From contig CATOIK010000005.1 of NCBI GenBank assembly GCA_951800645.1, forward strand, positions 62,001 through 126,000: 64,000 bases of DNA, written 5' to 3'. This stretch comes from an uncultured Eubacteriales bacterium. Lineage in GTDB: Bacteria > Bacillota > Clostridia > Lachnospirales > Lachnospiraceae. The notes below the pieces were generated by a model. It worked only from the letters and a program-made list of their open reading frames with translations. It did not search any database and was not told where the DNA came from. Shown one piece after another: positions 10,902-34,025 of the stretch (position 1 is its first letter; each line of letters begins with the position of its first letter). Made by a program: the position numbers and the translations under genes.

Positions 10902-12353
10902 ATGGCAGATGACAAACTGAACACGGGCCCCGGTGAGAAAAAAATCCCGGAGGCTCCCGAGTCTGTAACGGCTGGCCAGCCCCAGGCCCCGGCTCCCGAA
11001 CAGGCCGCTCCCACACCCCAGCAGGAACAGACCGGGCCCGCAAAGCCCGATCCCGGCGATGTGGTAGTGTCCTTTGAGCAGATCAATGAGCTCATGGGCG
11101 AAAAGCGAAAGGCGGCCCGGGCTGAGGTAGAGAAAGCCGGGGATGCCCCCACAAAGGAGCAGGCTCCCGGTGAGGCGGAACAGCCCGCCACTGGCGAACC
11201 GAAAAAGCCCCGCCGTGGCCGTTCCCCGAAGGAGGATAAAGCGGAGCCCGCTGGCAAGGAGGCGGCAAAGCCCCGCAAGGGCCGCCCGCCCAAGGCTGAC
11301 AAAGCGGCCCCCGGCGAGGCCCAGCCGTCCAAGCGAGACAAAATGTCCCGAAGTGACGGGAAGGCTCCGGACGCTCAAACTCCCCCAAAGGCTGGGAAAA
11401 CTGCTCCCGAAAAGAAGGCCGCCGCCCCGGAGCAGGCTCCGCCCGGGCCAGTCACCCCTCCCCGTCCGGTGGAGGAAGGCAAGCTCATGTATCTGAAACT
11501 TTCCGAGATGCATCCGTTCCATACATTCCGGCCCCATCCGTTCAAGGTGCGGGACGATGCCAAAATGCAGGAGACAGTGGCATCCATTAAGGCAAACGGC
11601 GTGATGGTGCCGGGCCTTGCCCGCCCGGAAAAGGACGGAAACGGCTATGAGATTGTGGCGGGCCACCGCCGCTGCCGGGGCAGTGAACTGGCCGGGCTAT
11701 CTGAAATGCCCTTTATCGTCCGGGATATGAGCGACCACGAGGCTGTCCAGGCCATGAAGGACAGCAACAAGCAGAGGGATCAGACGCTCCCCAGCGAGCT
11801 GGCCGCCCTGCTGGATTTGGAAGTGGAGGACATCAAGCACCAGGGCGGGCGGCTGAAAAATGTGGCCGAGGGCGACATTGGCAAGCGTTCCGTGGAGATC
11901 GTGGGCGAGGCCCACGACATGAACTATAAAAAAGTCATGCGCTATCTGCGGCTCAATTCCCTTGTGCCGGAACTGCTGGACAAGGTGGACGATAAAAAGA
12001 TGGGCTTTATGCCCGCCGTGGAGCTTTCCTATATCAAGCCCAAAAACCAGAGGCTGATCGCCGTTTCCATTGACGGGGAGCAGGCGTCCCCCTCGGTGGC
12101 CCAGGCGAAAAAGCTCCGGGAGCTGGATCAGGAGGGCAAGCTCAACGGCGATGTGATTGACGGTATCTTATCAGAAAAGAAAAAGGAGGATCGAGGCGTG
12201 ATTATTTCAACTGCTGAACTGGAAAAGTATTTCGGCAAGGAGGTCACTCCGGCCAAAATGAAAGAGCAGATCATCGGCCTGCTGGACGAGTGGAAACAGA
12301 AACAGCCGCCCGAGCTGGCAAAGGCCCCGAAGAAAATGGAAAAAGACAAGTAA
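10902..12353 (+). CDS. ParB/Spo0J-family partition protein with long Pro/Ala/Lys-rich N-terminus
   Basis: A 483-residue protein. Residues 1-185 are low-complexity Pro/Ala/Lys/Glu-rich and carry AT-hook-like RRGRSPK and RKGRPPK stretches. About 190-300 is a ParB nuclease/CTPase-fold domain with the GHRRCRG box; a helix-turn-helix region follows (about 310-400). ParB proteins bind parS palindromes and spread as CTP-dependent clamps. GGAGG lies 9 nt before the ATG. No parA is present in the element, which is unusual. One copy of the dispersed palindrome is embedded in the disordered part (reads DKMSRS). This protein is the best candidate to recognise the palindromes, but that is inference. Confidence 0.88.
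   Translation: MADDKLNTGPGEKKIPEAPESVTAGQPQAPAPEQAAPTPQQEQTGPAKPDPGDVVVSFEQINELMGEKRKAARAEVEKAGDAPTKEQAPGEAEQPATGEPKKPRRGRSPKEDKAEPAGKEAAKPRKGRPPKADKAAPGEAQPSKRDKMSRSDGKAPDAQTPPKAGKTAPEKKAAAPEQAPPGPVTPPRPVEEGKLMYLKLSEMHPFHTFRPHPFKVRDDAKMQETVASIKANGVMVPGLARPEKDGNGYEIVAGHRRCRGSELAGLSEMPFIVRDMSDHEAVQAMKDSNKQRDQTLPSELAALLDLEVEDIKHQGGRLKNVAEGDIGKRSVEIVGEAHDMNYKKVMRYLRLNSLVPELLDKVDDKKMGFMPAVELSYIKPKNQRLIAVSIDGEQASPSVAQAKKLRELDQEGKLNGDVIDGILSEKKKEDRGVIISTAELEKYFGKEVTPAKMKEQIIGLLDEWKQKQPPELAKAPKKMEKDK
11330..11354. repeat. Dispersed palindrome, copy 1 of 16
   Basis: Core GAGACA-AAA-TGTCCC at 11335-11349, inside parB, in frame with its disordered N-terminal region. The left outer arm is degenerate. 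Confidence 0.85.
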
Positions 12354-12638
12354 CCACTTCGAGACATTTTGTCCCGAGGGGCTCTGCCCCTCTGCGATGG
12401 CTCTGGTGGTATATATCCCCCGTCGCCGGGGATAAAAAAGCGCAGTCGGGAGCGGGCCGTCAAGGGGGCCAACGGCCCCGCCGCTTGCGGCGGCTTGCCC
12501 TTTACGGCCTGCCCCGGCTGTGCTATCTCCGGCCAAGCGGCGGGGGTATATCCTCCAGAGCCGCCCCCTTTCCCATGATTGGGAAAGGGCGGGGGGTTAG
12601 GGTTGAACGATTTTATGTTAGAACGGAGGTTTTTACTT
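12354..12638 (+). other. Long structured intergenic leader
   Basis: A non-coding gap rich in strong hairpins. After palindrome copy 2 come ATCCCC/GGGGAT (about 12416-12434), GGGGCC/GGCCCC with GCCGC/GCGGC (about 12465-12495), and CCCTTTCCC with GGGAAAGGG (12566-12589). The last ends about 30 nt before the Shine-Dalgarno of the next gene. None has a T-run, so they are not simple terminators. No protein family was recognised in any frame. Confidence 0.6.
12356..12380. repeat. Dispersed palindrome, copy 2 of 16
   Basis: Core GAGACA-TTT-TGTCCC at 12361-12375, beginning 3 nt after the parB stop codon. Confidence 0.9.
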
Positions 12639-12980
12639 ATGAAACGACCCCTTGCATACATTACCGCCGCATGGTTTGGCGGCGACAGTGAAAACGCAGA
12701 ACTGGCGGCCCAGTATTGCCGGGCCGTATATGAGGCGGGCTTTGCACCGATCTGCCCCGCCCTCTATCTGCCGCTGTTCCTCAATGACGCAGTACCCGAG
12801 GAGCATAAAAGCGGCATTGACATTGGCCGTGACCTGCTCCGCCGCTCCCGGGTGCTGGTGGTATGCGGCCACAGCATGACCGAGGCCATGAAAAATGATA
12901 TTGCCGTGGCCCAGCGGCTGGGGATTACCGCCACCACCCTTGAGGGCATTTTGACCGTCAAGGGCCAGGGCAAACGCTGA
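12639..12980 (+). CDS. DUF7768/DUF4406-like small protein
   Basis: A 113-residue protein beginning MKRPLAYITAAWFGG. The pattern of a beta strand followed by N-x-x-L-A-x-x-Y-C-R-A-V and later SRVLVVCGHSMTEAMKNDI resembles the nucleoside-2-deoxyribosyltransferase-like fold seen in DUF4406/DUF7768 proteins of mobile elements. The start at 12639 follows GGAGG with an 11-nt spacing; upstream in-frame starts lack a ribosome site. Its stop overlaps the start of ardA by one base. No enzymatic role is established. Confidence 0.65.
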   Translation: MKRPLAYITAAWFGGDSENAELAAQYCRAVYEAGFAPICPALYLPLFLNDAVPEEHKSGIDIGRDLLRRSRVLVVCGHSMTEAMKNDIAVAQRLGITATTLEGILTVKGQGKR

Positions 12981-13684
12981 TGGCATCCTTGTTTGAGGCT
13001 TACATTACCAACCTCGGCAAATACAACGAGGGGGAGCTGGTGGGAGAAACACTGGAATTTCCCACCAGCCCCCAGGAGGTGCAGGCGCTGTTGAAACATA
13101 TCGGCGTGGACGGCATACGGTACGAGGAATTTTTTATTACCAGCTTTGACGGCGATGTGCTGGGGCTCTATGACTATCTGGGTGAATATGAAAATCTGGA
13201 CGAGCTCAACCATCTGGCCTGCCTGCTCTCGGAACTCGATCAAGGTGAGCTTGAAAAATTTGAGGCAGTGCTCCATACGGGGGCGCATACCTCCAGTGTG
13301 GCAGATATTATCAATCTGACGCAAAATCTGGATTGCTTTGAATTTTATCCGGAGATTGAAAATGAGGAGGACTTGGGCCGTTACTGGGCGGAGGACCTGC
13401 CGATCCCGGAAGAACTGAAAGACTATTTTGACTATGAGGCATACGGCAGGGACATCTCCATCAACGAGGGCGGCCACATGGCCCCAGGCGGCTATGTGGT
13501 TCAGACCAGCGGAGACTTTAGGGAATATTATCACGGCCCCCAGGACATCCCCGCCGAGCATAAGGTGTTTTCCTATCCCCAGCTTTCCATCCGGGAGCAG
13601 ATGGCCGCTTACAAAGAGGTGATTGACGGTTCCTCAAAAGAGGGCTTTCGGCGGCTGACCGAAAAAGGCCGGGAGGAACGCTGA
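12980..13684 (+). CDS. ardA: Anti-restriction protein ArdA
   Basis: A 234-residue acidic protein with the ArdA N-terminal signature AYITNLGKYNEGELVGE (8-24) and the elongated three-domain layout of Tn916-type ArdA (ORF18). ArdA mimics B-form DNA and blocks type I restriction enzymes, protecting incoming single-strand-derived DNA during conjugation. The C-terminal extra region (FSYPQLSIREQMAAYKEV, split: FSYPQLSIREQ, MAAYKEV) is typical of Clostridia ICE versions. Translationally coupled to the gene before. Confidence 0.93.
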   Translation: MASLFEAYITNLGKYNEGELVGETLEFPTSPQEVQALLKHIGVDGIRYEEFFITSFDGDVLGLYDYLGEYENLDELNHLACLLSELDQGELEKFEAVLHTGAHTSSVADIINLTQNLDCFEFYPEIENEEDLGRYWAEDLPIPEELKDYFDYEAYGRDISINEGGHMAPGGYVVQTSGDFREYYHGPQDIPAEHKVFSYPQLSIREQMAAYKEVIDGSSKEGFRRLTEKGREER

Positions 13685-13690
13685 CAAGGC

Positions 13691-13715
13691 ACTTCGAGAC
13701 ATTTTGTCCCAAAGC
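13691..13715. repeat. Dispersed palindrome, copy 3 of 16
   Basis: Core GAGACA-TTT-TGTCCC at 13696-13710, between the ardA stop and the pcfB Shine-Dalgarno (13723-13727). Confidence 0.9.
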
Positions 13716-13735
13716 GGAGAAAGGAGGCGGTGTAA

Positions 13736-14212
13736 CTGATTGATGAAGAAATTTCCCGGAGCTCCATAGCGATCTCTGTCCGGGCTGGCAAGCTGACGGC
13801 CCGGGGGCTGGCTTATGTGCTCCAGGCGGCTGGGGGCCAGATCGCCAAACGGCACCGGGCGGCCCAAAGGCCCCACGGCAGGCAGAGCGTGAAAAAGCTC
13901 ATGGCCCACGGAGAAAATATAAACAGCATTGAGGTGGAGGCTCCCAGGCTCTTTGACCGTATGGCCCGCCGTTTCAATGTGGACTATGCCTTTTATAAAA
14001 CTGGGCCGGACAAATATCTGCTGTTTTTTAAGGCGGGACAGGCGGACGCTGTTACCGCCTGCTTTGAAAGCTATTCCCGGAAACTGCTCACGCAGTCAAA
14101 ATTCAGACGCATCCCTATCCGGGAGCAACTGAAACAGGCGGCGGAGCGGCTTGCGGTGGAAAAGCCCCGGGCGAAAGAACGAGTAAAGGAGGCGGCCCGT
14201 GAGGACAGATAG
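13736..14212 (+). CDS. pcfB: PcfB-family conjugation protein (DUF3801), probable CTG start
   Basis: A 158-residue protein of the PcfB family, which works with the coupling ATPase encoded next. The first ordinary start codon in frame is at 13817, but the reading frame and family-like sequence (IDEEISRSSIAISVRAGKL) begin right after GGAGG at 13723-13727. The codon at the proper spacing (8 nt) is CTG at 13736, followed by ATT; the codon before CTG is a stop. So translation most likely begins at a non-ATG codon. The 3' end overlaps the virD4 start by 14 nt. Confidence 0.8.
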   Translation: MIDEEISRSSIAISVRAGKLTARGLAYVLQAAGGQIAKRHRAAQRPHGRQSVKKLMAHGENINSIEVEAPRLFDRMARRFNVDYAFYKTGPDKYLLFFKAGQADAVTACFESYSRKLLTQSKFRRIPIREQLKQAAERLAVEKPRAKERVKEAAREDR

Positions 14213-16037
14213 CATAAAAAAATATTTGATACCCAACATCCCCTACCTGTTTATCCTGTGGGCCTGTCTGAAAATCGGGACAGCCTACCGGCTGGCGGCG
14301 GGTACGGATTTCGCCCACAAATTGATCGGGCTGGGCCAGACCATCGGCCCGGCCTTTGCCGACTTCGCCCCGGGAGTCAATCCCTTTGACTGGCTGATCG
14401 GCATCGTGGGGGCGGCGGCGTTCCGTCTGCTGATCTATGTAAAAAGCAAAAACGCTAAAAAATTCCGCCGGGATGAAGAGTATGGATCGGCCCGGTGGGG
14501 GACGGAAAAAGACATCAAGCCCTTTGTCGATCCAAAGTTTGAAAACAATGTCATTCTGACCGGGACGGAGTTCCTTACCATGAATACCCGGCCCCAAAAC
14601 CCGGCCAACGCCCGCAACCTCAACTGCTGTGTCATCGGCTCGTCCGGCTCGGGAAAAACCCGGTTCTGGCTCACGCCCCAACTGCTCCAGGCTCATTCCT
14701 CTTTCGTGGTGGTCGATCCCAAGGGCGGGGTGCTGTCCCAGGTGGGCGCTTTTCTCCAAAAGAAAAAGGGGTATAAGGTCAAGGTATTCAACAGCATTGA
14801 TTTTTCAAAATCCATGCACTATAACCCGCTGGCCTATATCAAGAACGAGGCCGACATCCTTAAATTTGTGGATGCCCTCATTTCCAACACCAAAGGCGAG
14901 GGCAAGGAGGGCGACCCGTTCTGGACAAAATCGGAAACTTTGCTTTACTGCGCTTTGATCGCCTATATCATTTTCGAGGGCCCCGCCGAGGATCGGAACA
15001 TGAATACTCTGGTGGATATGATTTCCGGTATGGAGGTCAAAGAGGATGATGAGGAATTTATGAACGCCGTGGACTATATGTTTTCCGGGCTGGAAAAGAG
15101 AAAGCCGGATTGTTTCGCTGTCAAGCAGTACAAAAAGTACAAGCTGGCCAGCGGCAAGACGGCAAAAAGCATTTTGATTTCCTGCGGGGCCAGACTTGCG
15201 CCCTTTGACATCCCCCAGCTCCGGGAGATTATGTCTTATGACGAAATGGAGCTTGACCGCATCGGAGATCGGAAAACGGCGGTGTTCTTTATTATCTCGG
15301 ACACCACCCAGACCTATAACTTCCTTGTGGCTCTTGCTTTTTCGCAGATGTTCAATCTCCTGTGCGAGCGGGCCGACAATGTCCACGGGGGCCGCCTGCC
15401 CCACCATGTGCGGGTGCTGTGGGACGAGGCGGCCAACACTGGCCAGGTGCCCCAGCTTGAAAAGATTGTGGCGGTGATCCGCTCCCGGGAGGTGTCGCTG
15501 ACCCTCTTTTACCAGCAGTTGGCGCAGTGCAAGGCTATTTATGACAAACACGCTGAGACGATTTTGGGAAATATGGACAGCGTGATCTTCCTCGGAGGCC
15601 GGGAGGCCAGCACCATCAAGGAAATTTCCGAGAACTGGCTGGGAAAGGCCACTATCTCCATGCAGACCGACAGCCGCTCCCGTGGCCAGTCGGAAAGCTA
15701 CAGCCAGAATAACCAGCGGCTGGGCCGGGAGCTGATGACCCCGGCGGAACTGGCAACCATGCCGGGGGACAAGTGCATTTTGCAGTTGCGGGGCCTGCCC
15801 CCGTTCTTCTCCCCCAAATATGATCTGAAAAAGCACCCCAACTACAAATACACGGCTGAGGCCGATAAAATCAAAAACGCCTTTGACCTTGACAGGCTCA
15901 TCAACCGCCGCAGGCGGCCCGGGCCGGAGGAACTATGCGAGGTGTATAAGGTGTCCGTGGAGGACAATGGGCTCACAGGCGAGGACGAGGACATCCTCAA
16001 CTATGACGATATTGACGATCCGGACGCCTTTGCATAA
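14199..16037 (+). CDS. VirD4/TraG-type conjugal coupling ATPase (PcfC-like)
   Basis: A 612-residue type IV coupling protein with a GTG start inside the end of pcfB. Two N-terminal membrane segments (about 10-30 and 60-85) precede the RecA-like domain. Walker A GSSGSGKT lies near 147-154 and Walker B VLWDEAAN near 406-413. It carries relaxase-DNA complexes to the mating channel. SARWGTEKDI near 100 is typical of TraG/VirD4. The gene is followed at once by palindrome copy 4 and a terminator. Confidence 0.95.
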   Translation: MRTDSIKKYLIPNIPYLFILWACLKIGTAYRLAAGTDFAHKLIGLGQTIGPAFADFAPGVNPFDWLIGIVGAAAFRLLIYVKSKNAKKFRRDEEYGSARWGTEKDIKPFVDPKFENNVILTGTEFLTMNTRPQNPANARNLNCCVIGSSGSGKTRFWLTPQLLQAHSSFVVVDPKGGVLSQVGAFLQKKKGYKVKVFNSIDFSKSMHYNPLAYIKNEADILKFVDALISNTKGEGKEGDPFWTKSETLLYCALIAYIIFEGPAEDRNMNTLVDMISGMEVKEDDEEFMNAVDYMFSGLEKRKPDCFAVKQYKKYKLASGKTAKSILISCGARLAPFDIPQLREIMSYDEMELDRIGDRKTAVFFIISDTTQTYNFLVALAFSQMFNLLCERADNVHGGRLPHHVRVLWDEAANTGQVPQLEKIVAVIRSREVSLTLFYQQLAQCKAIYDKHAETILGNMDSVIFLGGREASTIKEISENWLGKATISMQTDSRSRGQSESYSQNNQRLGRELMTPAELATMPGDKCILQLRGLPPFFSPKYDLKKHPNYKYTAEADKIKNAFDLDRLINRRRRPGPEELCEVYKVSVEDNGLTGEDEDILNYDDIDDPDAFA

Positions 16038-16041
16038 ATGG

Positions 16042-16066
16042 GCTTTGGGACAAAGTGTCCCGAAGT
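16042..16066. repeat. Dispersed palindrome, copy 4 of 16
   Basis: Core GGGACA-AAG-TGTCCC at 16047-16061, 10 nt past the virD4 stop and directly before a terminator. Confidence 0.9.
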
Positions 16067-16074
16067 CGGTAACT

Positions 16075-16098
16075 GCCGCCAGAAATGGCGGCTTTTTT
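16075..16098 (+). terminator. Intrinsic terminator between virD4 and Maff2 gene
   Basis: GCCGCC (16075-16080) pairs with GGCGGC (16087-16092), followed by TTTTTT. It would split the transfer operon or attenuate its distal part. Confidence 0.8.
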
Positions 16099-16134
16099 CA
16101 TAGCCGGGAATATCCCGGAGAAATGGAGGACTAT

Positions 16135-16347
16135 ATGGCATTTTTCGCATCCGCTATCACCACTTTACAGACCCTTGTGATCGCCCTCGGCGCTGGCCTT
16201 GGCGTATGGGGCGTAGTCAATCTTCTGGAGGGCTACGGCTCGGACAACCCTGGCTCAAAAAGCCAGGGCATGAAACAGCTCATGGCTGGCGGCGGCATCA
16301 TCGTGATCGGCACCACGCTGATTCCTCTGCTGTCTGGCCTGTTCTAA
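16135..16347 (+). CDS. Maff2-family small membrane protein
   Basis: A 70-residue protein starting MAFFASAITTLQTLVIALGAG, the namesake motif of Maff2 proteins of Firmicutes conjugative elements. Two membrane segments (about 8-28 and 45-67) flank a Gly/Ser loop. This resembles a VirB2-like pilin in size and topology, but that function is inference. Start 16135 follows GGAGG; an in-frame ATG at 16123 overlaps the ribosome site and is less likely. Confidence 0.85.
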   Translation: MAFFASAITTLQTLVIALGAGLGVWGVVNLLEGYGSDNPGSKSQGMKQLMAGGGIIVIGTTLIPLLSGLF

Positions 16348-16356
16348 GGAGGGCCT

Positions 16357-17228: not shown

Positions 17229-17253
17229 ACTTCGGGACACTTTGTCCCAAGGC
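17229..17253. repeat. Dispersed palindrome, copy 5 of 16
   Basis: Core GGGACA-CTT-TGTCCC at 17234-17248, between the TrbL-like stop and the next Shine-Dalgarno. Confidence 0.9.
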
Positions 17254-17270: not shown

Positions 17271-17654
17271 ATGCCAAGGCGGGCCCCCACCCGGTATAAA
17301 CCGGGCCCGGATGGGGAAATGCGCCGGACATGGAACGGCAAGCTCCCGGAGGAATTTACCCAGCGGGACACGCTGGCGTTTATGGCTGATACCGATTTGC
17401 TTTTGAATGGAAAGGTATCGGCGGAAACCCTGTCTGCAATCCATGCGGCAGGCTATGACTATAAGGGCGGGGCTGTCATCCCCATGCCTGGAAAGGAGGA
17501 AACAGGACTGAGTAACGATATAATTGCAAAAGCTGAGGCGGTGCGGCCCGCCCCGATAAGGGAGCAGATGGCCCAGGCCGCAAAGGAGGCGGGAAAGGAA
17601 AACGCCGCCCGCTCTGCCCCGGCAAAGAAAAAGGAGGCCCGGGATGACCGCTGA
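17271..17654 (+). CDS. Hypothetical basic protein of the transfer module
   Basis: A 127-residue charged protein with no recognised domain. The N-terminus is rich in Arg/Pro (PRRAPTRYKPGPDG), the middle has helices (LAFMADTDLLLNGKVSAETLSAI split at LLLN), and the C-terminus is Ala/Lys-rich with PIREQMAQAAKEAG. A similar IREQ-x2-QAA stretch occurs in PcfB, and IREQMAA in ArdA, suggesting a shared short C-terminal motif in several proteins of this element. The start follows AAGGAGG. It overlaps the methyltransferase gene. Confidence 0.7.
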   Translation: MPRRAPTRYKPGPDGEMRRTWNGKLPEEFTQRDTLAFMADTDLLLNGKVSAETLSAIHAAGYDYKGGAVIPMPGKEETGLSNDIIAKAEAVRPAPIREQMAQAAKEAGKENAARSAPAKKKEARDDR

Positions 17655-18438
17655 GAAAACCTCGGGACAAAGTGTCCCAAAGCTCCCGGCCTGCCCGGAG
17701 GGGCTGTTCCTTATGGACGGCATCGAGGGCCTGCGCTCCCTCCCCCGGTACTCGGTGGATATGCTTTTGACCGACCCGCCCTACGGCACCACCCGGAATT
17801 TTTGGGATGTGCCGCTCCCCCTCCCGGAGCTCTGGGAGGCGGTGAGATGGGCGGTCAAGCCGGAGGGGGCTGTGCTTTTTTTCGCACAATGCCCCTATGA
17901 CAAGGTGCTGGGGGCCTCCAACCTCTCCATGCTCCGCTATGAGTGGGTATGGTACAAGAGCCGGTGTACCGGCTTTCTCAACGCAAGGCGGGCCCCCCTA
18001 AAGCGGACGGAGAATATTTTGGTATTCTATCAAAGGCTCCCCTATTACGATCCGCAGTTTGAACAGGGCAAGCCCTATAAGAAAATTTCCCGTGAGGGGA
18101 GCAACAGCCCCAACTATGGAAAATTCCTGCGTTCCAGCAGTGGATCGGAGGACGGCCTGCGCTTTCCCGGAAACCTTTTGACCTTTTCTTCCGTACAGCG
18201 CACCGTCCACCCCACGCAGAAACCCGTGGAGCTGTGCGAGTATCTCATCAAAACTTATACCCGGCCCGGGGAGATCGTTGCCGACATCTGCGCTGGCTCC
18301 GGCACCACCGCCGTGGCCGCCGTCAACACGGGCCGCCGCTTTGTCTGCTTTGAAACCGCCCCGGCTTTCTATGCCCCGGCCACGGAGCGCATCCGGCTGG
18401 CGGGGGAGGCGGTAAAGGCCGGGCAGAAAGGAGTGTAA
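17644..18438 (+). CDS. DNA methyltransferase, beta class (N6-adenine or N4-cytosine)
   Basis: A 264-residue enzyme with catalytic motif IV TDPPYG (about 42-47) preceding the SAM motif ICAGSGTTA (about 218-226), the order of beta-class amino-methyltransferases. HPTQKPVELCEYLI before motif I is the usual substrate-side helix. No restriction enzyme is adjacent, so it is an orphan modification enzyme that may protect the element from host restriction. The ATG overlaps the preceding gene. Palindrome copy 6 falls in codons 6-12 and reads as SGQSVPK, giving an odd N-terminal tail before the family homology starts. Confidence 0.92.
   Translation: MTAEKTSGQSVPKLPACPEGLFLMDGIEGLRSLPRYSVDMLLTDPPYGTTRNFWDVPLPLPELWEAVRWAVKPEGAVLFFAQCPYDKVLGASNLSMLRYEWVWYKSRCTGFLNARRAPLKRTENILVFYQRLPYYDPQFEQGKPYKKISREGSNSPNYGKFLRSSSGSEDGLRFPGNLLTFSSVQRTVHPTQKPVELCEYLIKTYTRPGEIVADICAGSGTTAVAAVNTGRRFVCFETAPAFYAPATERIRLAGEAVKAGQKGV
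17659..17683. repeat. Dispersed palindrome, copy 6 of 16
   Basis: Core GGGACA-AAG-TGTCCC at 17664-17678, inside the 5' end of the DNA methyltransferase gene, 10 nt after the previous stop. Confidence 0.9.
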
Positions 18439-18440: not shown

Positions 18441-19034
18441 ATCGGAGACTATTCTATCATTTACGCCGATCCCCCCTGGCGGTACGCCCAAAAGGGCCTG
18501 CAAGGTGCGGCGGAGCGGCACTACCCCACAATGACGATTGACGAGCTGTGCGCGCTCCCGGTGGCAGATCTGGCCGCCCGGGACAGCGCACTTTTTTTGT
18601 GGGCGACTTTCCCCCAGCTCCCCGAGGCTCTGCGGCTCATTAAGGAGTGGGGCTTTACCTATAAAAGCGTGGCCTTTGTCTGGCTGAAAAAGAATAAAAA
18701 GGCGGATAGCTGGTTTTATGGGCTGGGCTTTTGGACAAGGGGGAACGCAGAAATCTGCCTGCTGGCTACCAGGGGCCATCCCAAACGGCAGGCGGCGAAT
18801 ATCCATCAGTTTATCATTTCCCCCATAGAGGCCCACAGCAAAAAGCCGGACGAGGCTCGGGAAAAGATTGTTGCCCTCATGGGCGACCTGCCCCGTGTGG
18901 AGCTGTTCGCAAGGCAGACACCGCCCGGCTGGGATGTGTGGGGAAATGAAGTCGCAAGCACGCTCCCGGACTTTGGGACAAAGTGTCCCGAAGTGGCCGG
19001 GGCTGGAAAGGAGGATCATTCGTGTCCTATGTGA
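18441..19034 (+). CDS. MT-A70-family methyltransferase with probable ATC start
   Basis: A 197-residue MT-A70-like enzyme. The catalytic ADPPW (about residues 9-13) is followed by the typical PTMTIDEL, LFLWATFP and KGHPKR-like (RGHPKRQAANIHQ) blocks; the family methylates adenine. No ATG, GTG or TTG occurs in frame between the upstream stop and 18531, which is past the DPPW motif. The codon 7 nt after AAAGGAG (18427-18433) is ATC at 18441, giving (M)GDYSIIYADPPW. So initiation at ATC is strongly implied. Palindrome copy 7 lies in the C-terminal codons (DFGTKCPEV). The end overlaps prgI by 13 nt. Confidence 0.88.
   Translation: MGDYSIIYADPPWRYAQKGLQGAAERHYPTMTIDELCALPVADLAARDSALFLWATFPQLPEALRLIKEWGFTYKSVAFVWLKKNKKADSWFYGLGFWTRGNAEICLLATRGHPKRQAANIHQFIISPIEAHSKKPDEAREKIVALMGDLPRVELFARQTPPGWDVWGNEVASTLPDFGTKCPEVAGAGKEDHSCPM
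18970..18994. repeat. Dispersed palindrome, copy 7 of 16
   Basis: Core GGGACA-AAG-TGTCCC at 18975-18989, within the last codons of the MT-A70 gene and 28 nt upstream of the prgI start. Confidence 0.9.
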
Positions 19035-21734: not shown

Positions 21735-23481
21735 ACCACGCCCGGAGCCCTGGGCGCAGACAGGCCCCACTGACCCCGGGGGCGGGGCCGCCGATTCGGG
21801 CGGCTCTGCTTTTGGGGCTGGCTCTGAAAAGCAGTCCGGGGCAACGGCTGAGGGAACTTCGGGACAAAGTGTCCCAAAGTCTCCCAAGTCCAAATTCAGA
21901 CAGAAAAGCCAGCAGGAACAGGCCGCCGCCAGCAAGCTCCGCATGGAAAAACAAGGGGAAAAGCTGGGGGCCGCCAGGGAAAAGCTGGCAAAACAGAAAC
22001 CGCCCAAAAAGCCCGGCCCGGTGAAACGGGCGGGCCGTGTGGCCGGGGGCTCCGTCCACGGCTTTGTGCATGGCAAGATTTTTGAGGTGGAGCAGGAAAA
22101 TGTAGGCACCGAGGGGGCCCACCGCTCCGAGCTTGTGGGCGAGTCCGGCCTGCGGTACGGCTCCCGGTTTGTAAAGCGCAAAATCCGGGAGCACCCGGCA
22201 AAAGCGGTGAGCCGGGCCGAGGCGAAGTTTATCAAGGCCAAGGCGGACTATCATTTCCACACCGCCGCTCAGGAGCACCCGGAGCTTGCGAAAAGCGCCC
22301 TCAAACGCTACTGGCAGAAACAGCGGCTGAGAAAGCAATACCAAAAGCGGGCAAGAGAGGCCGCCAGGCATGGTACAAAGGCCGCCGGGAAAACTGCCGC
22401 CGCCACGGAAAAGCTGGCGGCAAAGGCGGCGGGCTTTGTGAAACGCCATCCCGTTGGCTCCCTGATCGCTCTTGTCTGCGTTCTGCTTATTTTTATGATG
22501 CAGTCCTGCTCGTCCTCGCTGGTAATGCTGGGGAACGCCGGGGCCGGGGCTGTCGGGGCCAGCACCTACCCTTGCGAGGATGGGGATATGCTGGGGGCTG
22601 AGGCCTCCTACTGCGGTTTGGAGGCGGAGCTGGGGCGCTATCTTGATACCTACGAGGCCACCCACGATTATGACGAGTACCACTTCGACCTGGACGGGAT
22701 CGAGCATGATCCCTATGTACTGCTTTCTATTTTGTGTTCGCTCCATGAGGGCCAGTGGACGCTCCCCCAGGTGGAGGGCACTCTGCAAACGCTCTTTGAC
22801 CGCCAGTACATTCTCACCGAGGAAGTGGTGGTGGAGGTGCGCTACCGGACGGAAACCCGCACCGACAGAGAAGGCAACGATTACGATGTGGAGGTTCCCT
22901 ACAATTATTACATCTGCTATGTCACGCTGGAAAATGCGGATTTATCCCATCTGCCCGTTTCCCTTATGGGCGAGGATCAGCTATCCCGGTACGCCATCTA
23001 TATGTCTACCCTTGGCAACCGCCCCGACCTGTTCCCCGACTCGCCCTATGTAAACAGATACATCACGGGCCAGCCTGGTGGCGGCTATGAGGTGCCCCCG
23101 GAATATCTGGACGATGAAACCTTTGCCGCCATACTGACCGAGGCCGAGAAATACATCGGCTACCCTTATGTGTGGGGCGGCTCCAGCCCGGCCACTTCCT
23201 TTGACTGCTCCGGCTTTGTGTCCTGGGTTATCAACCATTCGGGCTGGAATGTGGGCCGTCTGGGGGCACAGGGGCTTTACAACATCTGTACCCCGGTGGG
23301 CTCCCCCAGGCCCGGCGACCTTGTATTTTTTAAGGGCACCTACAATACCCCGGGCGTGAGCCATGTGGGGATTTATGTGGGGGATGGGCGGATGCTCCAC
23401 TGTGGAGATCCCATCGGCTACGCAAATTTGAATACAAGCTACTGGCAGTCTCATTTCTACGCCTACGGGCGTTTACCATGA
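21715..23481 (+). CDS. CD1107-like NlpC/P60 wall hydrolase of the conjugation machine
   Basis: A 588-residue protein. A basic, low-complexity cytoplasmic N-terminus (about 1-240, Lys/Ala/Arg-rich helices) is followed by one membrane segment (about 246-270, ending at Cys-rich MMQSCSSS), an extracellular domain and a C-terminal NlpC/P60 domain with catalytic Cys498 in FDCSGF and a later His in SHVGIYVGDG. It would open peptidoglycan at the mating site (VirB1/VirB8-like role). Palindrome copy 8 sits in the disordered N-terminus (SGQSVPKS). Confidence 0.9.
   Translation: MKRKPNKPRPEPWAQTGPTDPGGGAADSGGSAFGAGSEKQSGATAEGTSGQSVPKSPKSKFRQKSQQEQAAASKLRMEKQGEKLGAAREKLAKQKPPKKPGPVKRAGRVAGGSVHGFVHGKIFEVEQENVGTEGAHRSELVGESGLRYGSRFVKRKIREHPAKAVSRAEAKFIKAKADYHFHTAAQEHPELAKSALKRYWQKQRLRKQYQKRAREAARHGTKAAGKTAAATEKLAAKAAGFVKRHPVGSLIALVCVLLIFMMQSCSSSLVMLGNAGAGAVGASTYPCEDGDMLGAEASYCGLEAELGRYLDTYEATHDYDEYHFDLDGIEHDPYVLLSILCSLHEGQWTLPQVEGTLQTLFDRQYILTEEVVVEVRYRTETRTDREGNDYDVEVPYNYYICYVTLENADLSHLPVSLMGEDQLSRYAIYMSTLGNRPDLFPDSPYVNRYITGQPGGGYEVPPEYLDDETFAAILTEAEKYIGYPYVWGGSSPATSFDCSGFVSWVINHSGWNVGRLGAQGLYNICTPVGSPRPGDLVFFKGTYNTPGVSHVGIYVGDGRMLHCGDPIGYANLNTSYWQSHFYAYGRLP
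21856..21880. repeat. Dispersed palindrome, copy 8 of 16
   Basis: Core GGGACA-AAG-TGTCCC at 21861-21875, inside the 5' low-complexity part of the CD1107-like gene. Confidence 0.9.
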
Positions 23482-23493: not shown

Positions 23494-23745
23494 ATGGCAA
23501 CAGCGAAAAGCATGAAAATCCAGGCCGAGATTGATAAGGTCAAGGCCAAAATCAGTGAACAGCAGGCCCGGCTCAAGGAGCTGGAACAAAAGAAACTGGA
23601 AGCGGAAAACAGCGAGATCGTGGACATCGTGCGGGGCATGAGCATCCCCCTTGACCAGCTCCCGCTCCTGTTTGAAAAGCTGAAAGGCGGCGCTTTGGGA
23701 CAAAGTGTCCCGAAGTCGGAGCCCGAGAAAAAGGAGGAAAACTAA
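23494..23745 (+). CDS. DUF4315-family coiled-coil protein
   Basis: An 83-residue protein starting MATAKSMKIQAEIDKVKAK, a short coiled coil (about 8-45) followed by the conserved EIVDIVRGMSI-like segment that marks DUF4315 in Firmicutes conjugative elements. Start chosen behind GGAGG; the ATG at 23482 has no ribosome site. Palindrome copy 9 lies in the last codons (LGQSVPKS). Function unknown; always between the NlpC/P60 and DUF4366 genes. Confidence 0.85.
   Translation: MATAKSMKIQAEIDKVKAKISEQQARLKELEQKKLEAENSEIVDIVRGMSIPLDQLPLLFEKLKGGALGQSVPKSEPEKKEEN
23692..23716. repeat. Dispersed palindrome, copy 9 of 16
   Basis: Core GGGACA-AAG-TGTCCC at 23697-23711, in the 3' end of the DUF4315 gene, 33 nt before the DUF4366 start. 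Confidence 0.9.
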
Positions 23746-25041: not shown

Positions 25042-25204
25042 GCCCCCGAAAACCCGCTTGTAACAAGGCTTTTACAGGCCGTTTTGGGGGCGGGCAATAG
25101 GATTCTATGTCCCGCCCCCAAAGGGCCGAAATGCTGTCAACATTTATCCGCCGGGACTTTGGGACAAAGTGTCCCGAAGTCCCGGCTTTCTGGAAGGAGT
25201 TACT
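25042..25204. other. Non-coding hairpin region upstream of the mobilisation operon (candidate oriT)
   Basis: 163 nt without a gene directly before the hypothetical-mobC-relaxase operon. TTTGGGGGCGGG (25083-25094) pairs perfectly over 12 bp with CCCGCCCCCAAA (25111-25122), with a nested ATAG/CTAT in the loop. A smaller CTTGT/ACAAG hairpin lies near 25060-25070 and palindrome copy 10 near the end. Inverted repeats just upstream of mobC are typical of oriT; the nic site cannot be placed. Confidence 0.45.
25156..25180. repeat. Dispersed palindrome, copy 10 of 16
   Basis: Core GGGACA-AAG-TGTCCC at 25161-25175. The longest copy: pairing extends to GGGACT...AGTCCC (25153-25183). Confidence 0.92.
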
Positions 25205-26136: not shown

Positions 26137-26177
26137 TCTCTCCGGGGAGTGGTATATGCCGCTCCCCGGTTTTCTCG

Positions 26178-26202
26178 ACTTCGGGACAAAGTGTCCCGAG
26201 GT
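26178..26202. repeat. Dispersed palindrome, copy 11 of 16
   Basis: Core GGGACA-AAG-TGTCCC at 26183-26197, between mobC and the relaxase Shine-Dalgarno (26224-26228). Confidence 0.9.
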
Positions 26203-27692: not shown

Positions 27693-27717
27693 ACTTTGGG
27701 ACACTTTGTCCCGAAGT
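27693..27717. repeat. Dispersed palindrome, copy 12 of 16
   Basis: Core GGGACA-CTT-TGTCCC at 27698-27712, with outer arms extended to GGACT/AGTCC, downstream of the relaxase stop. Confidence 0.92.
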
Positions 27718-29043: not shown

Positions 29044-29049
29044 CTTCCT

Positions 29050-29084
29050 AAAATAAGCTGCTCCCTAAAAGAGCAGTTTATTTT
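29050..29084 (+). terminator. Terminator after the TetR gene
   Basis: AAAATAAGCTGCTC pairs with GAGCAGTTTATTTT around a CCTAAAA loop, ending in a T-run. It uncouples the TetR gene from the efflux gene. Confidence 0.85.
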
Positions 29085-29095
29085 GGACATTTATC

Positions 29096-29112
29096 AAACC
29101 GACGGTCGGTTT
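29096..29112 (+). promoter_or_regulatory. TetR-type operator before the efflux gene
   Basis: AAACCGACGGTCGGTTT is a perfect 17-bp palindrome 26 nt upstream of the MFS start, in an AT-rich promoter region. It shares ACCGnnGGT with the site in front of the TetR gene. Confidence 0.8.
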
Positions 29113-29138
29113 AATAAATCAATCAATGGAGGTACTTT

Positions 29139-30377: not shown

Positions 30378-30459
30378 TCTCCATTATTGATGGAAACAAC
30401 TTTGCATAAAGACAAGACTGCACTTCATACAAAGGCCGCTGTTTGACAGCAACGGTTTC

Positions 30460-30505
30460 ACGGCGGTTTGAAAAATATAAATTCAAGCCGCCGTTTTCTT
30501 TTTCA
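30460..30505 (+). terminator. Terminator of the cargo block
   Basis: ACGGCGGTTTGAA (30460-30472) pairs with TTCAAGCCGCCGT (30482-30494), followed by TTTTCTTTTT. Confidence 0.88.
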
Positions 30506-30856
30506 AAAATAGAAATACGGAGGGTGTGTTAAAGTTGCCCTTTTTCAAGGACACGGCGGTGCCAAAGAGGTATCGCTGTGTCCATTTTCATATTTTGTAG
30601 CCCCCGTGAACTCCATCAGTTAAAAAAAGCGTAGCCCCTCCCCCGGAGCAGTCCGGCTATGGATGTGAAAATAGACAGTATATAATCGAATATATAACTT
30701 CGTGCGTCTGCATGGCTCTGTGTCATGCGGGCGTTTTTTGTTATCCGCACTTCGAGACAAAGTGTCCCAAGGTGCGGTGTAGCTCCCCGGGATGCCGCTC
30801 CCCACCGCCCCCGTTTCGGTCACTCATCCACCCAACACCGAAACGGAGGTTTAATT
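30506..30856 (+). other. Intergenic leader of the sigma-like gene
   Basis: Contains a hairpin GGACACGGCG/CGCTGTGTCC (about 30548-30582), an isolated TATAAT (30681-30686) and a terminator-like stem CGTCTGCATG/CATGCGGGCG followed by TTTTTT (30705-30739). Palindrome copy 13 and the Shine-Dalgarno of the next gene follow. The layout suggests attenuation but no known regulatory RNA was recognised. Confidence 0.5.
30749..30773. repeat. Dispersed palindrome, copy 13 of 16
   Basis: Core GAGACA-AAG-TGTCCC at 30754-30768, just after a terminator-like stem and 84 nt upstream of the sigma-like gene. Confidence 0.9.
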
Positions 30857-31267
30857 ATGACTACATTCAATCTGAAAGATTTTTATTATTGGTACACGCA
30901 GGATCAGTTTATCGAGGTTTCTGACGAGGTGGCCGGGGTATTTCTGGCCGATGCCCGTCACGAAATGGCTTACCAGCGGCGGCTTTCCCGGCACAAGGCG
31001 CAGTATTCTCTGGATTGTGAGGACGGGATTGAATATTCCGCCTGCCTGCATGAGCCCACGCCCCAGGAGCTCTTGGAGCGGATGGAGCTGTTCTGCCGTC
31101 TGTGGAACGCCCTCAATTCTCTGCCGGAAATCCAGGGCCGGAGGATCGACGCCCATATCATTCTTGGAAAGAGCATCAAGGAAATTGCCGAGGCCGAAGG
31201 CGTACATGAGGAGTCTGTCCGGCAGTCCATCAAGCGGGGCCTTGAGCGCATGAAAAAAACTTTTTAA
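30857..31267 (+). CDS. Sigma-70-like factor (region 4 HTH) of the element
   Basis: A 136-residue protein with a C-terminal sigma region 4 helix-turn-helix (KSIKEIAEAEGVHEESVRQS, about 108-127), a short acidic middle and no clear region 2. Similar small sigma-like proteins occur near the recombinase in Tn916- and Tn1549-type elements. Start 30857 follows GGAGG. It may activate transfer or recombinase genes; direct evidence is lacking. Confidence 0.8.
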   Translation: MTTFNLKDFYYWYTQDQFIEVSDEVAGVFLADARHEMAYQRRLSRHKAQYSLDCEDGIEYSACLHEPTPQELLERMELFCRLWNALNSLPEIQGRRIDAHIILGKSIKEIAEAEGVHEESVRQSIKRGLERMKKTF

Positions 31268-31331
31268 TTTTTTCATTTTGCCCACTTGGAAATGATGAAA
31301 AAATGTCTCGGTTTATGAGAGGAGGTTATCT

Positions 31332-31595
31332 TTCTCTGCAGAACAACAGGAGCGGCCCCGAGCAACATACGGGGAGCCGGGCGGCGGGTGCGCTGTGACT
31401 TTCTCCACAGAGGAACGAGCGAACAACACCAGCGCCGCAAATGGGGCGGGCCAACCCCAGGGCCACGATCCGCCGCAGGACAGGCTGGCCGCCTGTCCCT
31501 CCGGGCCGCCCTCTTGTCTGTGTGGGAGCGCCGCTCCGAATAAAGCTGTCTTTGGACGGGTCAAGAAAATGAGGGCGGCGTTCCCTCAATTTTAG
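31332..31595 (+). CDS. Possible small protein with no ordinary start codon
   Basis: GGAGG at 31321-31325 is followed 6 nt later by a frame reading (x)SAEQQERPRATYGEPGGG and ending at 31595, 88 codons. The codon at the expected start position is TTC; the first ordinary start in frame is GTG at 31395 without a ribosome site. A competing frame from ATC 31328 is also open for about 70 codons. Given other non-standard starts in this element it may be real, but the case is weak. Confidence 0.3.
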   Translation, partial: FSAEQQERPRATYGEPGGGCAVTFSTEERANNTSAANGAGQPQGHDPPQDRLAACPSGPPSCLCGSAAPNKAVFGRVKKMRAAFPQF

Positions 31596-31613
31596 GAAAG
31601 CGAGGTACAGTCT

Positions 31614-31817
31614 ATGAGTTACGATCCCGCAGAATTGGCGGCCCTGTTATCTGAACCGTGGAGCAACGGCGCTTGCCGTGGCTATGTCATTATGGCGATG
31701 GAAAACTGCGGCTTTGCCGACCAGGACATCCGCCGTATCATGGCCGAGCTCTATGAGCTGTTCGACTTTGTATCTCTGGATGAGGCCGAGGCCCATTATC
31801 AGAAAAGCTCCTATTGA
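31614..31817 (+). CDS. Small conserved-looking hypothetical protein
   Basis: A 67-residue acidic protein (MSYDPAELAALLSEPWSNG...), probably three helices, with a Shine-Dalgarno-like GAGG 10 nt upstream. It lies in the string of short genes before the recombinase typical of this ICE type. Its stop codon touches palindrome copy 14. No domain recognised. Confidence 0.7.
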   Translation: MSYDPAELAALLSEPWSNGACRGYVIMAMENCGFADQDIRRIMAELYELFDFVSLDEAEAHYQKSSY

Positions 31818-31841
31818 CTTCGAGACAAAATGTCCCGAGGT
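31817..31841. repeat. Dispersed palindrome, copy 14 of 16
   Basis: Core GAGACA-AAA-TGTCCC at 31822-31836, directly after the stop codon of the small gene. Confidence 0.9.
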
Positions 31842-31944
31842 GGAGCGAGGCAAGAGGGCGGCACCTTTTGGGTGCTGCCCTCTTGCGTTTCCCCACTATG
31901 AGCGGGAGGCGATTTAACCCTGTTTTGGAAGAGGAGGTTTTACC

Positions 31945-32211
31945 GTGAGATTAACTGCACAGGAAATTGAACAAATGAAAAGCGTTGACATCGGCGCAGT
32001 AGATAAGGAAACCCTTGCAGACGCAAGCGGTTTTACTTTCGATCCGATGCTCCCCAAGGAAACCCGGGCCCAGCGGATGTTGGAGCATTTCAAAAATCCG
32101 TATTGTTTCCGTTTGGGCGATATGGTGATTAAGCTGGAGTTTGCGGACGAGGGGCCCTCCCTCCAGGAACTGCTCACCGCATTTTTTCTCCGGCAGAAAA
32201 GCGGGCTGTAA
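31945..32211 (+). CDS. DUF6870-like small protein
   Basis: An 88-residue protein starting with GTG behind GGAGG. The N-terminus RLTAQEIEQMKSVDI and the segment FKNPYCFRLGDMVIKLEFAD (20 residues) resemble DUF6870 proteins that accompany conjugative-element recombinases. Function unknown. It ends 22 nt before palindrome copy 15. Confidence 0.7.
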   Translation: MRLTAQEIEQMKSVDIGAVDKETLADASGFTFDPMLPKETRAQRMLEHFKNPYCFRLGDMVIKLEFADEGPSLQELLTAFFLRQKSGL

Positions 32212-32233
32212 CTTCGACTTCGGCCCCTCTGCA

Positions 32234-32258
32234 ACTTCGAGACAAAGTGTCCCATACA
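32234..32258. repeat. Dispersed palindrome, copy 15 of 16
   Basis: Core GAGACA-AAG-TGTCCC at 32239-32253, 14 nt upstream of the recombinase promoter -35. The right outer arm is degenerate. Confidence 0.85.
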
Positions 32259-32267
32259 AAGGCATCC

Positions 32268-32296
32268 TTGTTGTCCCTCCCCAGCAGAGGTATAAT
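32268..32296 (+). promoter_or_regulatory. Promoter of the serine recombinase
   Basis: TTGTTG (32268-32273), 17-nt spacer, perfect TATAAT (32291-32296); the start codon is 31 nt downstream behind AAGGAGG. Palindrome copy 15 sits just upstream, a position suited to a regulator. Confidence 0.75.
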
Positions 32297-32327
32297 ATAG
32301 ATGTAATGTGATAGGGAAGGAGGACAA

Positions 32328-34025
32328 ATGGCAAGAACAGCAAACCGGGGGACAATAAGCGCCAGTGCCCCTACTTCATACAATGCGATGCGCTGGAGGC
32401 TGGGTAAATATATCCGGCTCTCCAAAGAAGATTTACTCCGTGGCCGGGACGAAAGCAACAGCGTTATCAACCAGAGGCGGCTTTTGGAGCAATACCACCA
32501 GACCCATCTGGACGAGTTCTATGACGGAACCGAGCAGGATGTATATGTGGATGACGGCAAAACCGGGACGGATACTGACCGTGAAGATTTCCAGCGGCTC
32601 CTGGCCGATGTGTATAGCGGCAGGATCAACTGCGTGATTGTCAAAGACCTGTCCCGCCTCTCCCGTAACTATACCGATGCCGGGAACTTGATTGAAAATC
32701 TGTTTGTCCGGCTGAATGTACGGTTTATCAGCTTGGCGGAGGGTGTGGACAGCTACCGCAACCCGGACAGCGTATCAAACATTATCGTGCCGATCACGAA
32801 TGTAATGAACGATCAATACTGCTATCAGACCTCAAAGAAAATCCGGCAGGTATTTGATATGAAACGCCGCAACGGTGAGTTTATCGGTTCGTATGCCCCC
32901 TATGGCTATGTGAAAGACCCGAATGACAAACACGCCTTGTTGGTTGATCCCGAGGCCGCCGAAGTGGTAAAAAGCATTTTTGCGTTGTTTCTGTCCGGTA
33001 TGAACAAACGGGGGATCACCTATTACTTGAACGACCACGGGACACTTTGTCCCACAGCCTATAAGCAACAGCAGGGGCTCAAGTACAACGCCCCCAACGC
33101 CCAGGGCAATCCTATGTGGAGTACAATCACCATAGACACAATCTTAAAAAATCGTGTTTATGTGGGGGATATGGTACAAGGCCGCCAGCGGGTGAAAAGC
33201 TATAAAATCCACATTCAAGAAAAGGTGCCGGAGGAAGAATGGTTTATCGTGGAGAATACCCATGAGGCCATTATAGACCGGGAAACCTTTGCAAAGGTGC
33301 AGAGCCTGCTCAAACGGGATACCCGCACCGCTCCAAAAGCTAAACAGCTTTACCTGTTCAGTGGTTTTCTGAAATGTGCCGACTGTGGCCGGGCGATGTC
33401 CCGGATCGCATCCAAAGGGATTTATGTATATTATCAATGCGGGACTTATAAAAGCCTGTCAAAAAAGGCTTGCACTATGCACTCGATTAAAAGTGACCGA
33501 CTTGAGGCTGGAGTGCTGTTTGCGATCCAGCAACAGGTGCATCTGGCACTTACTTATTCCGAGTTTGTTGCCCGTATCAACTCCGCACCTCTGAAAAAGA
33601 GCAAGTCAAAGCGGCTGGAAGATACCATCGCCGCAAAAGAAAAAGAGCTTGCTAAAATCATGCGGTACAAGCAGGCCCTTTATCAAGACTGGAAAGACGG
33701 GGAAATTACCCGCAACGATTACCGGCACATGAGCGAGGACTATGAACAGCAGATTGAGGCCCTCACACGCATTATGCAAACGCTGACGGCGGAGCAGGAA
33801 CAACTGGAAAACGGCGTGGATGCGGAAAGCCCATGCCTTACCGCATTTCTCAAATACCGGAACATTGACAAGCTGACACGGGAAATTTTAGGCGAGCTGA
33901 TCGACCACATTAAGGTTTACGAGGGCGGCAATATCAGCGTGAAATTCAAATACGCTGACGAGTTCCGCCGTATAGCAGAATATATCGAGCTCAATTCCCC
34001 TATGGTTACGGGGGCCGCTGTCTGA
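32328..34025 (+). CDS. Large serine recombinase (integrase/excisionase-type, TndX/TnpX-like)
   Basis: A 565-residue recombinase. The N-terminal resolvase domain has catalytic Ser32 in YIRLSKED and the conserved DLSRLSRNY (about 106-114). The recombinase domain (about 180-300) is followed by a zinc ribbon (LKCADCGRAMSR, YQCGTYKSLSKKACTMH, about 345-385) and a coiled coil (about 420-490). It excises and integrates the element. Palindrome copy 16 lies in the coding sequence and reads DHGTLCPT. No separate excisionase is seen, consistent with TndX/TnpX-like enzymes that do both. Confidence 0.95.
   Translation: MARTANRGTISASAPTSYNAMRWRLGKYIRLSKEDLLRGRDESNSVINQRRLLEQYHQTHLDEFYDGTEQDVYVDDGKTGTDTDREDFQRLLADVYSGRINCVIVKDLSRLSRNYTDAGNLIENLFVRLNVRFISLAEGVDSYRNPDSVSNIIVPITNVMNDQYCYQTSKKIRQVFDMKRRNGEFIGSYAPYGYVKDPNDKHALLVDPEAAEVVKSIFALFLSGMNKRGITYYLNDHGTLCPTAYKQQQGLKYNAPNAQGNPMWSTITIDTILKNRVYVGDMVQGRQRVKSYKIHIQEKVPEEEWFIVENTHEAIIDRETFAKVQSLLKRDTRTAPKAKQLYLFSGFLKCADCGRAMSRIASKGIYVYYQCGTYKSLSKKACTMHSIKSDRLEAGVLFAIQQQVHLALTYSEFVARINSAPLKKSKSKRLEDTIAAKEKELAKIMRYKQALYQDWKDGEITRNDYRHMSEDYEQQIEALTRIMQTLTAEQEQLENGVDAESPCLTAFLKYRNIDKLTREILGELIDHIKVYEGGNISVKFKYADEFRRIAEYIELNSPMVTGAAV
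33034..33058. repeat. Dispersed palindrome, copy 16 of 16
   Basis: Core GGGACA-CTT-TGTCCC at 33039-33053, inside the recombinase gene; outer arms are not conserved, so this copy may be fortuitous or under coding constraint. Confidence 0.65.

Follow-up and report, generated by a model that had tools for sequence, protein, structure and literature searches.

Palindromes dispersed across a clostridial integrative and conjugative element as probable loading sites of its own ParB protein

A 64,000-nt stretch from an uncultured member of the Lachnospiraceae (contig CATOIK010000005.1 of assembly GCA_951800645.1, positions 62,001 to 126,000), hereafter the window, contains an integrative and conjugative element (ICE) in which one 25-bp palindrome recurs 16 times. 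The locus raises the question of what reads so many copies of a single site, and what their reader does. An initial annotation proposed an element-wide protein-binding site, with the ParB encoded by the element as a candidate; this proposal is strongly supported by covariation between ParB residues and palindrome bases, and by a distant group of short ParB proteins. The palindromes very probably serve as loading sites for the cognate ParB of the ICE, because they occupy orthologous positions in related elements and two residues in the helix-turn-helix (HTH) of ParB predict their lineage-specific spellings. Among the papers listed by a search of titles and abstract beginnings, with subscription journals mostly and preprints wholly outside it, none describes these repeats.

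All 16 cores located by the initial annotation (GRGACANNNTGTCCC) were recovered at the same coordinates. The left core half reads GGGACA in 10/16 and GAGACA in 6/16, and the right half reads TGTCCC in 16/16. At 0-1 mismatch, the 64 kb contain 16 cores, all of them within 11335-33053, in agreement with the claim that the flanks are free of them; a looser pattern (KRGHCANNNTGDCYM) gave 16 matches in the 23.6-kb element vs. one in 40.4 kb of flanks. The 16 palindromes belong to the ICE, not to the surrounding chromosome. Across the whole genome, GRGACANNNTGTCYC matched 20 times (vs. once for a reversed control pattern): 16 times in the ICE, twice on the same contig ~31 and 34 kb to the left, and twice on other contigs. 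A 23-bp version of the motif occurs in seven of 291 Clostridia genomes, and the control in none of the genomes among the matches listed; with 284/291 genomes lacking a match, equal density of the motif in host chromosomes was not seen.

Twelve long ICE stretches with TcpA identities of 84% or more, all from one clade with the window ICE, carry the motif 9-16 times each, some of them, such as G033C9, ending at contig ends; closely related elements with the same proteins thus keep the motif. The places are mostly orthologous, single ones being missing in some elements: within ParB and 3' of it, 3' of ArdA, TcpA, and TrbL, ~20 bp inside the methylase gene, within NlpC, at the end of DUF4315, at the relaxase, and upstream of both the sigma-like gene and the recombinase. 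Given this distribution, the array appears as an old, selected trait that is the mark of one ICE clade. Inserts of at least ~10 kb at Maff2, beside TcpA, in G007C22, G028C128, and G006C44 are without ParB sites.

Outside the clade, the motif has no copies in L130, in three other ICEs (L131-L133), or in 19 of 20 further ICE stretches (T176-T195; TcpA ~55-58% identity). Tn1549 and other CD1115-type ICEs have the same conjugation machine as the window ICE (TcpA of the CD1115 family, Maff2, TrbL, VirB4, NlpC, and CD1107). L130, which we take to be the Tn1549-type element of pMG2200 (its record does not carry that name; eight of the papers listed mention both Tn1549 and pMG2200), lacks both this ParB and the array. 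Because L130 and 19 of the 20 further stretches are without copies, the motif is not a general trait of Tn1549-type elements. The exception, T182, also includes part of a motif-bearing ICE, namely its TrbL, LPD26, and methylase genes; it accounts for two of the four matches to the looser pattern in 26 controls (611 kb). Among the control ICEs examined, those without the long kind of ParB have no such array. Results are given for the named members of 48 control stretches and sister elements.

In the clade and its sisters, three half-site spellings were found (ACTTYGGGACA, CTCTGGACA, and CTTCGGGYCA), each with a 3-nt spacer; the GGGACA spelling is referred to below as type A, and the first and fourth core bases as p1 and p4. 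At the same places as in the window ICE, G011C19 carries CCTCTGGACA-CSG-TGTCCAGAGG (10 copies with exact 7-bp halves), and G020C76, G028C67, and G025C5 carry CTTCGGGYCA with its mirror half. All three spellings share alignment columns 3' of the TcpA stop, and two of them share columns in the C-terminal codons of DUF4315, where the alignment points to a site that is conserved as DNA even where it is translated. Because different palindromes replace each other at the same places, the spelling is best explained as being set by something acting in trans. A site that combines a GGGACA half with a TGGACA half lies within parB in four of five LNY elements (L247, L248, L249, and L218); this hybrid is perhaps a relic of a specificity switch. 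The spacer is largely uniform within an element (AAG, AAT, or AAA types), with an orientation that varies by position; recombinase sites with oriented spacers were set aside as a candidate on that ground and on the location of the sites among transfer genes.

This replacement in place also bears on the idea of a mobile palindromic repeat (such as repetitive extragenic or Rickettsia palindromic elements, REP/RPE) that spread by insertion. In-frame copies inside genes, and presence or absence among the satellite elements described below, would suit such a repeat. The ICE positions, however, are orthologous, with the spelling exchanged in situ, and they are conserved across ParB lineages of ~50% identity; the mobile repeat was rejected on the orthology of positions, and we give it next to no credence. 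The initial annotation had likewise excluded a transposable repeat, with which the largely orthologous positions across the 12 long stretches (single ones missing in some) agree, as well as a CRISPR (the gaps are irregular, 417-3056 bp) and a terminator (a T-run directly follows the palindrome in 0/16).

The trans-acting factor was sought by collecting ParB proteins with their surroundings; palindrome families were first sought without regard to ParB and then counted with a generic pattern that admits only G/T at p1 and A/C/T at p4. The ParB alignment comprises 79 rows (L230, with an unreadable ParB frame, is omitted). Among half-sites of these rows, R329 goes with G at p1 in 931/944 and L/K329 with T in 122/126, and at p4 Y/G342 goes with A in 730/742 and V342 with C/T in 314/328. 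Per element, as judged by the commoner base in elements with at least two sites, agreement is 74/74 for residue 329 and 74/74 for residue 342 (L222, L236, L250, L254, and L255, each with fewer than two generic sites, are omitted from this set). Among 334 variable ParB columns, perfect separation is confined to two for p1 (324 and 329) and three for p4 (76, 321, and 342), compared with 0 of 72 columns in DUF7768, 0 of 104 in DUF3801, and 0 of 184 in TcpA for either base. On a ParB tree (quick method, HTH columns dropped), residue and base each change three times for position 329 and twice for position 342; on the best tree, the L type is nested in the R/N/Y rows twice (LNY at 100 in a set at 98; LSG + LSV at 99 in sets at 85-91).

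The predicted binder is an orphan ParB of 483 aa (10902-12353, + strand), the first gene of the ICE, with key residues R329, N341, and Y342. Its N-terminal, CTPase-fold domain matches Pfam ParB_N (PF02195, 6e-15) and TIGR00180 (66.7 bits, cut-off 58.45). A fold search ranks nucleotide-bound ParB proteins first, and its matches include ParB-CDP (1e-11), Noc bound to its binding site NBS (7e-11), and KorB (1e-8), with low TM-scores to the query of 0.3-0.4. In the structural model (mean predicted local distance difference test score 83.2), the HTH helices span 135-149 and 154-163, and Y342 opens the latter, the recognition helix. Position 342 aligns, over a weak 1.3-bit stretch, with an arginine of Thermus Spo0J beside the recognition helix, and residue 342 would by position be the counterpart of Caulobacter R173. 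R173 is reported to contact parS base 1, and is among the four residues whose change switches preference from parS to NBS (PMC7383237). The ParB N-terminus (10902-11500) is long and of low complexity, with repeated RGRxPK-like motifs; the short ParB proteins listed are without it. These motifs may resemble AT-hooks.

Short ParB proteins supply a further line of evidence. Type-A sites were scanned for on their own, giving at least 119 loci found via the site and not via ParB; 18 of these have a ParB match, of which nine are of the long kind, seven are distant short proteins, and two (L100 and L124) have an HTH that was not read. In the distant short group the recognition helix reads SYKTVQRY with an arginine thirteen residues earlier, i.e., R and Y at both code positions. 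Each of the short-ParB loci (L028, L046, L063, L069, L083, L115, and L119) carries a single type-A site within the parB gene itself, apparently immediately 5' of the codons for the HTH.

Several observations weigh against ParB as the reader of the array, or against a simple form of that reading. The base at p4 is also separated perfectly by 24/417 VirB4, 83/403 NlpC, and 38/291 relaxase columns, by 3/64 MobC columns, and by a single column in ArdA, in TrbL, and in PrgI, while two VirB4 columns and two NlpC columns separate p1; spelling thus also tracks clade in these less-sampled genes (27-35 rows; ArdA 59 rows), where column separation is weaker evidence. Switches are few; with just two supported pairs (p 0.5), significance is out of reach for a sign test on independent pairs. 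Short ParB proteins of 41-46% identity occur in ICEs that have no array, so that a ParB alone does not imply one. The ParB motifs deviate from those of solved ParB proteins (GHRR for GERR; SN/DN for EN), and CTP use by the ICE ParB is uncertain because of these deviations. Sites are placed at the ends of genes and not chiefly at promoters. Finally, a symmetric clamp does not account for the strict polarity of the GAG half: in R/N/Y-type elements this is the upstream half in 99/99 distinct contexts and the downstream half in none, these contexts coming from a limited number of homologous positions, and in V-type elements it is upstream in three and downstream in two. GAG sites in the window lie only near both element ends, at ParB, ArdA, the sigma-like gene, and the recombinase (sites 1-3 and 13-15); in relatives they also occur 3' of TcpA (G033C9), 3' of TrbL (G008C38), and at the methylase (G028C128). 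The polarity may reflect graded or oriented loading.

Part of this evidence could be turned toward another element-encoded DNA-binding protein, such as the methylase, MobC, or the sigma-like protein. The N6_N4_Mtase gene (window 17644-18438) is present in 12/12 long GGGACA-type ICE stretches, a further point against ParB, and the three MobC columns noted above separate p4. The methylase is, however, absent from four sister ICEs that bear other palindromes at the same places, and was dropped as the reader for this reason; none of the 64 MobC columns separates p1; and satellites keep sites in DNA that, as far as examined, is without these ICE genes. Another reader is accordingly very unlikely.

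A role as RNA hairpins in polycistronic mRNA, acting in processing, stability, or translational coupling, would draw on the 11-bp arms and 3-nt loop of the palindrome and on its frequent proximity to stop codons and Shine-Dalgarno-like sequences. In 235 distinct contexts from R/N/Y-type elements, however, 99 have GAG facing CCC and 87 have C facing A, neither of which pairs fully in the sense RNA; moreover, the spelling follows the ParB HTH, and some sites lie within coding ends. The RNA hairpin was rejected because sense-strand pairing is broken in many type-A sites, and its probability is taken to be extremely low.

The covariation is taken to establish binding by ParB; for what follows binding, a mechanism can be proposed from what is described for the family. 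A ParB dimer would read the palindrome, close as a nucleotide-dependent clamp, and slide off; with a site every 0.4-3 kb, clamps would reach the entire 23-kb element. The array spans 21.7 kb of the window ICE, and its gaps (mean 1447 bp, range 417-3056 bp) are more even than random (coefficient of variation 0.53, P = 0.0065). The same holds (P < 0.05) in 8/11 elements, which are related to each other; the values for G009C9, G012C272, and G006C44, the last of which carries a large insert, are P = 0.10, 0.06, and 0.97, respectively. Gene junctions, and probably disordered protein ends, would be used since a 25-bp site is tolerated there. The resulting coat might serve mainly to restrain genes for transfer, excision, and regulation and to organize the element, as in KorB or Noc systems, although this last step is less certain.

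Several known systems offer partial parallels. KorB of plasmid RK2 is likewise a ParB-family clamp with operators (OB) on a conjugative element; its OB-proximal sites are reported 4-10 bp upstream of promoters, and its reach as 1.5 kb (PMC11790492), a distance similar to the mean ICE site spacing. Site 15 of the ICE (32234-32258), 9 bp upstream of the -35 of a putative recombinase promoter, resembles the OB-proximal placement, and would fit repression there. Unlike in KorB/OB, most backbone gene junctions of the ICE carry a site and the spelling switches between lineages; no KorA-like clamp lock was identified in the ICE domain scans, the only search made for one. Noc of Bacillus is a ParB paralogue with its own NBS sites and with a specificity switch in which the counterpart of residue 342 takes part (as reported in PMC7383237); Noc is chromosomal, with CTP-regulated membrane binding according to PMC8429893, whereas the present ParB is encoded on an ICE. 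BisD of ICEclc is also a ParB-domain regulator encoded by an ICE (PMC7423338, PMC12704722), but it is proteobacterial and works with BisC, and the available portions of these sources describe no dispersed array for it.

Classical ParABS systems have a cognate ParA and a clustered centromere; the window ICE has its sites spread over the array, and no ParA-family domain was found among the 29 ICE products scanned, smaller frames being outside the scan. With no ParA found, a coating clamp like KorB, Noc, or BisD seems likelier than ordinary partition, and partition in the classical sense, one of the roles suggested initially, is weakened. The even spacing together with the lack of a ParA favors an element-wide coat for regulation, and silencing or regulation could well be the main role of the sites, a tentative assignment to which we give slightly less than an even chance. 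Alternatively, ParB at its sites would activate ICE genes in transfer-competent cells, a function for which BisD, reported as a ParB-domain activator subunit, is the precedent (PMC7423338). No BisC partner was identified, none having been specifically sought, and the site at the recombinase promoter abuts the -35 and is usable either way; activation is considered improbable. The half-site of sopC from the F plasmid (TGGGAC) may resemble the palindrome.

The sites extend to smaller mobilizable elements, referred to here as satellites. Of the 119 loci among the matches listed for type-A sites, 65 are without an ICE-clade gene at >=60% identity, and 19 of these 65 carry a small mobilizable element with genes for RepA_N, Cys-rich VLP, Mob_Pre, and an HTH_3 regulator; no ParB match was found in the satellite DNA examined. 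A site-blind search by the satellite replication protein gave 31 matches in 24/348 genomes, 30 of which (L256-L285) were surveyed. In 20/30 satellite loci a site lies no more than 1.5 kb from rep, its position being nearly fixed, and 10/30 have none. The place is between the HTH_3 and VLP genes, upstream of the VLP-rep-mob genes (relatives such as L266 and L276 are without that stretch). Of the 20 site-bearing satellites, 14 have type A only, two the TGG type only, and four have two spellings in tandem, 26 bp apart (TGG + GGGACA in L258, L268, and L271; TGG + GGGYCA in L272); in L260 and L282 the site has a degenerate second copy next to it. This survey is the basis for the tandem arrangement; a tandem-site pattern search gave no matches in 285 loci, probably because the linker assumed in it was wrong. 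L031, L037, L060, L081, and L125 each have a second site, made of one TTGTGGACA half and one GGGACA half, ~3.4-4.9 kb 5' of rep; it combines the L239 code with that of type A. The pair of additional matches on the window contig (C5 positions 39009 and 41902; L001 and L002) very probably belongs to a satellite, and the ICE's ParB is the only ParB found in that genome at E up to 1e-35.

Such satellites lend support to a maintenance function, by which the excised, replicating circle (and the satellites) would be partitioned or clustered by ParB at these sites, perhaps via a host ParA. Those with the RepA_N replication gene carry one or two sites at a near-fixed place, as in SGI1, which is reported to carry two copies mimicking parS of its IncC helper plasmid (PMC10954446). 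Satellites resemble SGI1 in carrying helper-type ParB sites; some, unlike SGI1, hold two specificities in tandem. G028 and G011 each hold ICEs of different spellings, which would fit the avoidance of incompatibility; two ICEs with identical spelling coexist in G008 and again in G012, which would not. Known partition sites are clustered; those of the ICE are dispersed, their 12-16 copies exceed what partition should require, and the scanned products again include no ParA. Maintenance as the main purpose is therefore regarded as rather unlikely. Somewhat favored on balance is the view that lineages run private ParB-site codes, by which each ICE would be coated from at least a dozen sites, the whole set of spellings would switch with one or two ParB residues, and the tandem two-spelling sites of satellites would be readable by several helper ICEs.

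The ICE itself is probably ~23.4 kb long and bounded by imperfect inverted repeats at 10684-10713, just outside ParB, and 34056-34085, just past the recombinase gene; these are 30 nt long, 83% complementary, and 23342 nt apart. Its genes encode, in order, ParB, DUF7768, ArdA, DUF3801, TcpA/VirD4, Maff2, TrbL, LPD26, an N6/N4 DNA methylase, MT-A70, PrgI, VirB4, NlpC/P60, DUF4315, CD1107, Cys-rich VLP, DarA_C, MobC, and the relaxase, followed by a TetR/MFS cargo, a sigma-region-4 protein, DUF6870, and a large serine recombinase. The coupling protein is a TcpA of the CD1115 type (NF045973, 536 bits, cut-off 250), and the conserved transfer genes are present. The putative recombinase promoter (TTGTTG-17-TATAAT, 32268-32296, + strand) was read from an alignment of eight elements, in all of which the TATAAT box is identical and site 15 is kept 5' of the promoter; the -35 varies. 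A promoter scan gave 12 and 20 promoter-like sites vs. 4.7 and 8.6 in shuffles, and its list does not include this promoter.

The sites, all given on the + strand, had been described as lying mostly 3-40 nt after a stop codon; this applies to about 10/16, and the other six lie within reading frames (start codons judged by eye). The in-frame copies are site 1 (11330-11354, core 11335, GAG class) within ParB; site 6 (17659-17683, core 17664) in codons 6-14 of the N6/N4 DNA methylase, at its N-end; site 7 (18970-18994, core 18975) at the C-end of the MT-A70 gene, 5' of PrgI; site 8 (21856-21880, core 21861) in the N-terminal part of the NlpC/P60 gene; site 9 (23692-23716, core 23697) in the C-terminal codons of DUF4315; and site 16 (33034-33058, core 33039) within the recombinase gene. 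The core of site 16 is perfect; because its outer arms are poor and, among ICEs compared position by position, it recurs only in a close relative (G012C261), this copy may be fortuitous. Sites 2 (12356-12380) and 3 (13691-13715), both of the GAG class, lie directly 3' of the ParB stop and 3' of ArdA, respectively. Site 4 (16042-16066) is 3' of TcpA/VirD4 and 5' of a terminator-like hairpin (16075-16092), and site 5 (17229-17253) is 3' of TrbL. Site 10 (25156-25180) is 5' of the DarA_C gene, the true start of which was placed downstream by eye; site 11 (26178-26202) follows MobC and a terminator-like hairpin (26142-26169), where the relaxase frame begins; and site 12 (27693-27717) is 3' of the relaxase. 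Sites 13 (30749-30773), upstream of the sigma-region-4 gene, and 14 (31817-31841), 3' of orf67, are of the GAG class, as is site 15.

The picture that results is of an orphan ParB with dispersed sites, all of which change spelling in step with it. A repeat that had lacked an explanation, in a conjugative family of many gut Clostridia, thereby gains a likely function and a named reader. The family also offers a natural repeated experiment, in which a DNA-binding protein and at least a dozen sites shift specificity together, the hybrid site in parB included. These findings suggest that ParB clamps may form a more general layer of ICE control, which satellites would exploit.

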